Shown here: positions 23,786 through 34,137 of the stretch, piece by piece
Numbering within the stretch: the stretch's first letter is position 1
How the letters are laid out: each line of letters opens with the position of its first letter
From: Candidatus Altimarinota bacterium
GTDB taxonomy: Bacteria; Patescibacteriota; Gracilibacteria; BD1-5; UBA2023
Assembly: GCA_028691375.1 (NCBI GenBank)
Contig: JAQUZJ010000004.1
Coordinates: forward strand, 1-34,560
Direction of reading: 5' to 3'
DNA length: 34,560 bases
The notes under the pieces: model-generated
The model's database searches: none
The model's input: only the letters and a program-made list of their open reading frames with translations
What the model was told of the DNA's origin: nothing
Position numbers and translations under genes: made by a program

Positions 23786-27211
<3,426 letters not shown>

Positions 27212-30969: not shown

Positions 30970-31046
30970 GGGGTCATAGCTCAGCTGGTTAGAGCGCCTG
31001 CCTGTCACGCAGGAGGTCGCGAGTTCGAATCTCGTTGATCCCGCCA
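30970..31046 (+). tRNA. tRNA-Asp (GUC)
   Basis: 77 nt including an encoded CCA. The acceptor GGGGTCA pairs with TGATCCC, discriminator G. The D-arm has AGCTCAGCTGGTTAGAGC, and the T-arm has GAGTTCGAATCTC. The anticodon loop CTGTCAC gives GTC, decoding Asp. Confidence 0.95.
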
Positions 31047-31114: not shown

Positions 31115-31191
31115 GGGGACTTAGCTCAGTTGGCTAGAGCATCTGCCTTGCACGCAGGGGGTCAGGAGTTCGACTCTCCTAGTCTCCACCA
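31115..31191 (+). tRNA. tRNA-Ala (UGC)
   Basis: 77 nt including an encoded CCA. The acceptor GGGGACT pairs with AGTCTCC, discriminator A. AGCTCAGTTGGCTAGAGC is the D-arm and GGAGTTCGACTCTCC the T-arm. The anticodon loop CTTGCAC gives TGC. It is 68 nt after tRNA-Asp, likely in one transcript. Confidence 0.94.
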
Positions 31192-31274: not shown

Positions 31275-31496
31275 ATGTGATTAAGCAGTAAAAGACCACA
31301 TTACTTGAATTATGCTGTAAATAATAAAAGAGTAAATTCTTCCGATAAGGTACAGAGTACAATTAAACATTATTTGAGATTACAAAAAAGAATAGCTTTT
31401 GAAGGGATGACAAAATGGTTGTCTAATGCGCAAGAAATTGTATTAAAAAAGCTTAAAAAATATGGTATTAATCCTAACAAATTAACAAATGCCTAG
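31275..31496 (+). CDS. Small basic protein upstream of tuf
   Basis: 73 aa. The ATG at 31275 is followed by a TGA glycine, TAG stop at 31494-31496. The sequence MGLSSKRPHYLNYAVNNKRV ... LRLQKRIAFEGMTKWLSNAQ is basic and helical. I do not recognise a family. Its position directly before tuf in a ribosomal-protein/tRNA neighbourhood suggests a translation-related or ribosome-associated protein, by context only. Its last codons overlap the start of the next small gene by 8 bp. Confidence 0.65.
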
Positions 31497-31575
31497 ATTT
31501 ACTACACATTCACACAAAAAAATTAGAAGAGCTGTACAAAGAGTTACAAAAAAAGTAGCAAAAGCTAAAAAATAG
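31489..31575 (+). CDS. 28-residue very basic peptide
   Basis: 28 aa, ATG at 31489 overlapping the previous stop (ATGCCTAG), TAG stop at 31573-31575. The sequence starts MPRFTTHSHKKIRRAVQRVT and ends in KKVAKAKK, about 40 percent Lys/Arg. The 8-bp overlap implies translational coupling. Small basic peptides of this sort are often ribosomal (for example bTHX or bL36 size class), but no match is claimed. Confidence 0.5.
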   Translation: MPRFTTHSHKKIRRAVQRVTKKVAKAKK

Positions 31576-31654
31576 CTTTACTTTTTGGTCTTTTTTAATA
31601 AAATTTTTGGTACGTTAAATTAATTATTTTTTTATTTATTAAATTTTTATTTTT

Positions 31655-32848
31655 ATGGCAACTTTTGATCGTTCTAAAGCACATATTAATATTGGTACTA
31701 TCGGACATGTAGATCATGGTAAAACTACCACTACTGCCGCTATATCTATAGTATTGGCTAAAAAATATTGATGAGAAATAACTGAATTTGCTAAAATCGA
31801 TGCTGCTCCAGAGGAAAAAGCAAGATGAATAACAATCAATACTGCTCATATCGAATATGAAACTGCAAATAGACATTACGCACATGTTGACTGTCCATGA
31901 CATGCAGATTACGTAAAAAACATGATTACCTGAGCTGCACAAATGGATGCGGCTATCCTTATCGTTGCTGCTACTGATGGGCCTATGGCTCAGACTAGAG
32001 AGCATATTCTACTTGCTAGACAGGTATGAGTTCCTTACATTGTTGTATTTATGAACAAGTGTGATATGGTTGATGATGAGGAAATGTTAGAAGTAGTTGA
32101 AATGGAGATAAGAGATCTTTTGAATAAATATGAATTTCCGGGGGATGACACTCCAATTATTAGAGGTTCAGGTCTTGTGGCTTTAGAAAATCCTACTGAT
32201 TTTGAAAAACCATACGGAGCTAAGACAATTCTTGAATTATTTGATGCCATTGAAGCTTGGGTACCAGTTCCAGATAGACCATTAGATAAGACATTCTTAA
32301 TGTCTGTTGAAGATGTATTTTCAATTAAAGGTAGAGGTACAGTTGTAACTGGTAAAATTGATCAATGAATTGTAAAAATTGGAGATGAAATTGAAATAGT
32401 TGGTATCAGAGATACTAAAAAAACTACTGTTACATGAATAGAAATGTTTCATAAACAACTAGATCAAGGACAGGCTTGAGATAATGCAGGTCTCTTATTA
32501 AGAGGTATAGAAAGAAATGATGTAGAAAGATGACAAGTATTAGCTAAACCTGGTTCAATCACTCCACATACTAAATTTGAAGCTCAAGTTTATGTATTGA
32601 CAAAAGATGAGTGAGGAAGACATACTCCATTTTTCAAAGGTTACAAACCTCAATTTTACTTCAGAACTACTGATGTAACTGGAGCTATTGAATTGGCGCC
32701 TGGAGTTGAGATGATTATGCCTGGTGATAATACTACTATGACAATTGAATTAGGATCTCCTATTGCCATGACTGAAGGTCTTAGATTTGCGATTAGAGAA
32801 TGAGGAAGAACAGTTGGTTCATGAGCTGTTTCTAAAATCATTAAATAA
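31655..32848 (+). CDS. tuf: Elongation factor Tu
   Basis: 397 aa, ATG at 31655, TAA stop at 32846-32848, normal length. It has G1 GHVDHGKT, the switch I region [16 protein letters not shown]3 [21 protein letters not shown]4 NKCD and G5 SGLVALE. Both the CPG glycine and the ITG glycine are TGA codons, the cleanest proof in the window that UGA encodes glycine. Several GGT codons also occur in the same gene, so both glycine codon types are in use. It delivers aminoacyl-tRNA to the ribosome. The order tuf-rpsJ follows the bacterial str/S10 arrangement. Confidence 0.98.
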
Positions 32849-33096: not shown

Positions 33097-33420
33097 ATGT
33101 CTGCTACTAAGAAAAACTGAAATATTAGAATAGTTGTAAGAGCTTTTGAACACAAACTTATTGATGAAGCTGTAAAAAAAATTGTTATTACTGCTAAAGA
33201 TTCTTGAGCAATTGTTGTTTGACCAGTACCTTTACCTACAAAATTTGAAAAAGTTACAGTTAATAGATCAACTTTTGTAAATAAAGATTCGAGAGAACAG
33301 TTTGAAATAAGAAGACATAAAAGACTTATTGATATTACTGAACCTACTTCTAAAACATTAGAAATGTTACAAAACATCAATCTTCCTTCATGAGTTGGAG
33401 TTGATATTAAACTTATATAA
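33097..33420 (+). CDS. rpsJ: 30S ribosomal protein uS10
   Basis: 107 aa, ATG at 33097, TAA stop. [20 protein letters not shown], then [34 protein letters not shown] and the C-terminal [12 protein letters not shown] are typical of uS10. It sits in the small-subunit head and is also NusE in antitermination. The palindromic repeat lies between it and tuf; bL28 follows 23 bp later. Confidence 0.96.
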
Positions 33421-33443: not shown

Positions 33444-33641
33444 ATGGCAAGAGTTTGTTTTTTGACATGAAAGAGGACTTCTGTTTGAAATAATGTTTCA
33501 CATTCTGTAAGAAGAACAAAAAGAACATTTTTTCCAAATTTATTTTGGAAGAATATAGCAGACCCAATAACATGAGTGAAGGTTAGAGTTAAATTATCTG
33601 CTAAAGCGATAAAGACTCTAAAAAAAGAGTGAATTTTATAA
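33444..33641 (+). CDS. rpmB: 50S ribosomal protein bL28
   Basis: 65 aa, ATG at 33444, TAA stop. MARVCFLTGKRTSVGNNVSH is the bL28 start, then RRTKRTFFPNLFWKNI and VRVKLSAKAIKTLKKEGIL. The usual bL28 family has two or more Cys; only one is here (Cys5). Standard-code calling would break it at residues 9 and 15, where Gly is TGA. Confidence 0.93.
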
Positions 33642-33903: not shown

Positions 33904-34137
33904 ATGCTAAAAATAAGATTATCTAGAGCTGGAAGAAAATGAATGCCGTTTTTTAAAATCGTTTTAACAGAACATCAAAAAGCAGCAAAACATGGATTTA
34001 TAGAAGTTCTATGAAGTTACAATCCTTTGACTAAACAAGTGGATTTAAAAAAAGAAGAAATGGACAAATACATTTCAAATTGAGCTCAATTATCTGAGAG
34101 CTTATCTAAAATTTTGGCTAGAAATTCTAGTAAATAA
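33904..34137 (+). CDS. rpsP: 30S ribosomal protein bS16
   Basis: 77 aa, ATG at 33904, TAA stop. MLKIRLSRAGRKGMPFFKIV is the bS16 start; FIEVLGSYNPLTKQVDLKKE and YISNGAQLSESLSKIL are the conserved core. bS16 binds 16S rRNA in the small-subunit body. khpA follows 24 bp later, the classic rpsP-khpA pair. Confidence 0.96.

Follow-up and report, generated by a model that had tools for sequence, protein, structure and literature searches.

Two small basic genes upstream of tuf, ORF73 and ORF28, very probably represent two new protein families of a deep clade with a role in translation, and they are most likely ribosomal proteins; a description as ribosome-assembly proteins or as a translation regulator is possible. 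The window, i.e., the whole stretch of DNA that was analyzed, is one whole contig of 34,560 bases from a genome of 1.1 Mb in 97 contigs (estimated to be 84% complete). Taken together, the data make it likely that the pair consists of undescribed proteins of the translation apparatus, foremost structural ribosomal proteins, that were gained in the ancestor of Gracilibacteria, Absconditabacteria and, as regards ORF73 only, the Abawacabacteria family. The frames are coding, conserved, paired, set among translation genes and without a credible known family. "New lineage-specific ribosomal proteins", as suggested in the initial annotation, is the best-supported reading, since the two are conserved, selected, basic, without a credible family and present in two translation contexts; the part that fits less well is the context of ORF73 in two outlying families, where all three loci lie away from ribosomal genes. 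Gene context, charge, and conservation suggest that the proteins bind the ribosome. That they are co-transcribed, bind rRNA, and belong to the mature ribosome, in one subunit or the other, is inferred.

The pair in the window and the genetic code

The pair and its neighbors are arranged in the window as follows.

30970..31046, + strand: tRNA-Asp (GTC), kept upstream neighbor (ARAGORN, Rfam)
31115..31191, + strand: tRNA-Ala (TGC), kept upstream neighbor (ARAGORN, Rfam)
31275..31496, + strand: ORF73, basic protein of 73 aa, pI about 10.4 (code 25 frame; TGA at codon 2 gives Gly)
31489..31575, + strand: ORF28, very basic protein of 28 aa, 39% K+R (code 25 frame)
31655..32848, + strand: tuf (EF-Tu), 397 aa, the next gene downstream of the pair (code 25 frame, Pfam)
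33097..33420, + strand: rpsJ (uS10), downstream of tuf (Pfam PF00338)
33444..33641, + strand: rpmB (bL28) (Pfam PF00830)
33904..34137, + strand: rpsP (bS16) (Pfam PF00886)

The coordinates, the sizes (73 and 28 aa), and the 8-bp overlap between the two frames (ATGCCTAG, 31489-31496) that had been reported for the pair were reproduced exactly on re-reading with code 25, and ARAGORN and Pfam bear out the placement between two upstream tRNAs (Asp and Ala) and tuf on the downstream side. Downstream of tuf follow rpsJ, rpmB, tRNA-Leu, rpsP, and a KH-domain gene. Given common length limits, a frame as short as ORF28 will probably escape standard gene callers.

Translation table 11 yields only a 63-aa ORF with a TTG start at 31305, and the full 73-aa frame requires TGA to be read as Gly at codon 2. 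Because tuf is a single 397-aa EF-Tu frame that carries 13 in-frame TGA, and because the codon-2 Gly of ORF73 is written with an ordinary codon in the relatives L002-L005 (with no internal stop), code 25 is supported for the window. The order to which the window belongs comprises the families f1, f2, and f3. Code 25 seems to be valid also in f3, as judged from ORF28: the f3 frame (L080:3726-3815, with its counterpart in L081) has an in-frame TGA at exactly a site where many f2 homologues carry Gly, and the f3 ORF73 has no TGA.

Elsewhere in the window, a leucyl-tRNA synthetase of 1141 aa (23786-27211, + strand) carries two foreign embedded domains according to Pfam: residues 241-426 match Ser_hydrolase (alpha/beta hydrolase) and residues 596-698 match NUDIX, and the two flank the main editing-domain stretch (421-557).

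Conservation, pairing and selection within the order

The initial annotation had named unconserved reading frames in relatives as the outcome that would count against the two genes. Instead, a search revealed ORF73 in 38 of the 40 genomes of the window's family and order (its own genome included), and at every one of these 38 loci (L001-L030, L080-L087) ORF28 directly follows ORF73 and is in turn followed by tuf. Both tRNA-Asp and tRNA-Ala lie upstream of the pair at 36 of the 38 loci; the exceptions are at contig ends (L081, with tRNA-Ala only, and L087, with neither tRNA). The genomes without an ORF73 match are G021 (80% complete, 50 contigs) and G022 (90% complete, 130 contigs), and in G007 the match is at a contig edge only. 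With a wider profile (see below), 56 order genomes match and four do not, the latter being G572 and G582 besides G021 and G022. The absences are likely to be assembly gaps. The ORF28 profile was made from 30 of the 38 order loci, for which its E-values are circular; at the loci outside it, the values are 9e-15 or better (L082-L087, where some ORF28 are identical to profile members or to each other) and 2e-8 (L080 and L081).

The spacing between the two genes is variable. Apart from the window's own locus, it is 1 to 96 nt among the first 30 loci (29 compared) and positive in all 37 other order loci. At 24 of the 38 loci it is 1-4 nt, which suits joint translation of ORF73 and ORF28. In the window, the stop that stands behind the ...NKI of most relatives is missing and ORF73 is extended by a few codons. 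This comparison identifies the 8-bp overlap as a change private to this genome; the two overlapping genes are real as first described, but the overlap is incidental and not a conserved feature.

Selection was assessed in six hand-picked pairs of close relatives, which were pooled. Changes at codon positions 1, 2, and 3 number 32, 16, and 115 in ORF73 and 10, 2, and 44 in ORF28, with pooled pN/pS of 0.110 and 0.062, respectively. A nonsynonymous fraction as low as that observed was not obtained in any of 1000 random placements, for either frame. These patterns indicate that ORF73 and ORF28 are both protein-coding and under strong purifying selection. The mean content of K+R is 25% in ORF73 and 40% in ORF28, and that of D+E is 5% and 2% (30 rows each). 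Both combine three traits of ribosomal proteins: a basic composition, conservation, and strong purifying selection. The positions of ORF73 that are invariant across the order (30 aligned rows) include K6 R7 P8, Y13, K25, R39, E43 G44, T46, and W48.

A second operon and more distant relatives

A scan of named genomes gave 41 ORF73 loci, among them L074 with a homologous pair in another operon. These loci carry the labels Gracilibacteria, Patescibacteria group, (uncultured) bacterium and, in a single case (L076), Abawacabacteria. The wider ORF73 profile (A3, 28 rows; cut-off E <= 0.1) matches 107 of 288 class genomes: 56 in the order (f1, f2, and f3), 44 in family f159, two in f162, one in f157, and four elsewhere. 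The last four (G495, G517, G422, and G556; E 9.6e-4 to 0.07) lie in longer or broken frames and were taken as chance. Among 379 phylum genomes, the narrow profile A1 gave nothing credible beyond the window's own ORF73, although a profile this narrow may overlook distant relatives; a second match (E 0.008) is inside a 332-aa frame and is not credible.

Family f159 probably corresponds to Absconditabacteria, as suggested by in-frame TGA, its place in the class, and published statements on code 25 and on the clade; the published passages in question state that Absconditabacteria have code 25 and a clade in common with Gracilibacteria. The gene order in all 15 fetched loci (of the 44 f159 genomes matched) is rpsL-rpsG-ORF73-ORF28-rplS-rplY, with the gene names confirmed by Pfam on one locus. 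ORF28 is longer here, 46-58 aa, and lies beside ORF73 in all 15. A profile of this long ORF28 (A6) matches 44 f159 genomes, identical to the 44 with ORF73; f159 genomes without an A6 match would not appear in this count, and all 12 f159 genomes of the bS21 survey (see below) are among the 44. The short and long ORF28 align with an hhalign probability of 92. Moreover, the f159 ORF28 profile (E <= 0.1) matches 20 of 60 order genomes, with the best place just 3′ of ORF73 in 18 of the 20 (the exceptions being G011 and G572).

Hence, placement in a translation operon is seen twice, as tRNA-Asp-tRNA-Ala-pair-tuf in the order and as rpsL-rpsG-pair-rplS-rplY in the 15 f159 loci, and the pair moves together between two arrangements, both of translation genes. 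The classical str operon is rpsL-rpsG-fusA-tuf, and both arrangements would therefore be explained by an ancestor in which S12 and S7 were followed by the pair and then tuf. This placement does not extend to f162 (Abawacabacteria; L073, labeled Gracilibacteria, and L076, both assigned through their bS21 positions) and f157 (L115), where ORF73 has neither an adjoining ORF28 nor a ribosomal-protein neighbor at any of the three loci, and the matches listed for the ORF28 profile include none of the three genomes. The ribosomal context of ORF73 is thus not universal. In the f159/f157 alignment of ORF73, three columns only are invariant over 15 rows, so that these families do not strictly retain the order's core motif.

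Function of the pair and rival explanations

Both window proteins were searched against Pfam together with members of alignments A1, A2, A5 (f159/f157 ORF73), and A6, against NCBIfam together with members of A1 and A6 only, and against the PDB together with profiles A1, A2, A5, and A6. No credible family match emerged for either protein or its alignments, and the lowest E-values were at the level of chance (0.036, 0.042, and 0.14 against the PDB, and mostly above 0.009 against Pfam). Two single members of A5, each 1 of 15, gave lower Pfam values, HC2 (Histone H1-like; E 1.1e-6) and RPN6_N (E 0.003). Lys/Ala-rich tails are present on the ORF73 of L111 and L115, and the HC2 match probably arises via such a tail. 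No description of the two families was found in the titles and abstracts that searches of open-licence PMC papers yielded.

The AlphaFold2 model of ORF73 is a helical hairpin (residues 23-43 and 47-62, mean pLDDT 80) with weakly ordered first 20 residues (pLDDT 56-61), and that of the 52-aa ORF28 of L074 is one helix (residues 5-51, mean pLDDT 94). Ribosomal proteins are commonly built in either way, with a basic tail on a compact helical core or as a lone basic helix. Neither Foldseek (best E 3.2) nor VIA-align gave a significant match to the ORF73 model; in VIA-align, the RNA-binding domain of influenza NS1 comes first (Z 5.5-5.6, rmsd 2.0, 53 aligned), level with designed proteins and one ribosome chain from B. 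subtilis, and the Flavobacterium 70S chain 7jil_Y scores Z 4.0. Such fold look-alikes say little, the modeled hairpin being helical.

In the model that we favor, ORF73 would be a short helical hairpin whose basic conserved N-terminal part (consensus KRPRxLNYxVNKKG) threads into rRNA, and ORF28 a single basic helix (28 aa; 46-58 aa in f159) docking in an rRNA pocket in the manner of bS22/eL41. The two would be translated jointly at equal levels, with other translation genes as neighbors. A metaproteome of Gracilibacteria has been published (PMC11452946).

The nearest parallel in kind is bS22 of Borrelia. Like bS22 (with its analogues eL41 and mS38), bL37, and bL38, the pair is tiny, basic, patchily distributed, and overlooked by annotation. 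Passages of the Borrelia study describe bS22 and bL38 as unannotated and revealed by cryo-EM density, and bS22 as a tiny basic protein in a pocket of 16S helices (PMC10618245). bS22, eL41, and mS38 are single basic helices in a pocket formed by 16S h27/h44/h45 and 23S; for the long ORF28 of L074, a single helix is predicted. In the window, ORF28 has 39% K+R versus 61% stated for Borrelia bS22 in those passages. ORF73 and ORF28 also differ from bS22, bL37, and bL38 in being without a credible PDB or Pfam match and in being encoded amid ribosomal or tuf genes.

Gene context, charge, and conservation would be equally well explained if ORF73 and ORF28 were non-stoichiometric assembly or ribosome-associated factors, e.g., chaperones of 16S rRNA folding, of S7/S12 or of EF-Tu. 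Replacements of this kind are plausible because Patescibacteria have about half the usual ribosome biogenesis factors, according to one report (PMC12641178). Yet the 28-aa and 73-aa proteins have no recognizable catalytic or GTPase domain, and a very small basic helix is what is typically met in ribosomal proteins, as bS22 illustrates. We regard assembly factors as rather unlikely, though they are the foremost of the alternatives.

It is less probable still, and by a clear step, that ORF73 represents an established ribosomal protein, such as bS21 or bS20, diverged beyond recognition. The proteins compared as possible identities were bS20, bS21, and bL35. The argument in favor is that bS21, at E <= 0.001, was found in none of 40 order genomes and none of 12 f159 genomes, a gap that a diverged form could fill, and that the size and the helical hairpin of ORF73 loosely fit bS21, which is about 70 aa, basic, and helical. 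In other bacteria, bS21 is located near the 16S platform. Against this, bS21 (PF01165) gave no match in scans of 30 + 15 ORF73 members, the hhalign probabilities are 0.2 and 0.1, and both f162 genomes carry bS21 above the curated cut-off plus an ORF73 homologue. Two f3 genomes, which the order count above treats as devoid of bS21, also have a weak bS21 candidate (E 0.003 and 0.02) alongside ORF73; since the weak level (E <= 1) also gives matches in 13 of the 14 controls, even archaeal ones, this candidate is tentatively accepted only because its 67-aa frame aligns with the f162 bS21. Identity of ORF73 with bS21 is thus very unlikely.

For bS20 (PF01649), the same scans of 30 + 15 members gave no match, and a separate bS20 is encoded in 37 of the 40 order genomes (none was found in G021, in G023, or in the window's genome, which is incomplete). 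bS20 is likewise a basic helical protein, and 3j9w_AT, a B. subtilis ribosome chain that we take to be bS20, is a weak look-alike of the ORF73 model (Z 5.4, rmsd 6.3, 68 aligned), on a par with NS1 and further helical hits. Nor was ORF28 supported as bL35 (PF01632), which has no match among ORF28 members and is present separately in 11 of 12 genomes, missing only from the window's incomplete genome. Across the class, bS21 (PF01165) went undetected at E <= 0.001 in 70 of 99 genomes and passed the curated cut-off in nine of the 99; these detection counts suggest that bS21 was lost or strongly diverged across much of the class.

ORF28 might instead act on tuf, as its leader peptide or as a small regulator, with ORF73 as a translational regulator of the same operon, and its position just upstream of tuf in 38 of 38 order loci would suit such a function. 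However, the f159 homologue (46-58 aa) precedes rplS, not tuf, in 15 loci, the amino acid sequence itself is under purifying selection, and the scan found no terminator-like stem between ORF28 and tuf, all of which makes this reading highly improbable. The scans for promoters (14 found versus a mean of 13.0 in shuffles) and terminators (one found versus a mean of 1.0) were at chance level, including a promoter-like match between ORF28 and tuf (31577-31604) that is at chance level for the region. That the pair comprises nucleoid or other nucleic-acid-binding proteins sharing a strongly expressed operon is just as remote: the high charge, the single HC2-like match, and the non-ribosomal location in f162 and f157 speak for it, but long C-terminal tails are missing from 12 of the 15 A5 members, and the two main contexts differ while both being translational.

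The 3′ end of 16S rRNA was read in relatives, e.g., L129 (from about 1338), L127, and L128, and was matched in 12 of 21 genomes. The usual 16S tail is ...GGATCACCTCC. The anti-Shine-Dalgarno region is altered to ...GGATGGACTATCTCC or ...TATCTCT in f1 and f2 and to ...GGATGGACTACCTCT in f3. No 16S end was located for the window itself, and visual inspection showed no SD-like run of purines upstream of ORF73 or ORF28. In a wider class sample (tail matched in 16 of 24), the tail varies also in families without the pair, and it has the usual form in f162 and f157, both with ORF73; for these reasons, no link between the 16S tail and the pair is claimed. A speculative and in our view unlikely scenario is that the clade rebuilt its 30S subunit: bS21 would have been lost and the anti-Shine-Dalgarno eroded, the ORF73 hairpin and the ORF28 helix would have taken structural places, and start sites would be chosen without SD pairing. 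If so, streamlined ribosomes gained parts while losing others.

Returning to the favored reading of ORF73 and ORF28 as gained ribosomal proteins, the pair would add to a known kind, that of lineage-specific ribosomal proteins, and would represent no new type of system. The families would serve as markers for the clade. Patescibacterial ribosomes are described as reduced in two reports (PMC10221324, PMC12641178), and two gained, widely conserved families would mean that ribosome reduction and gain run together.
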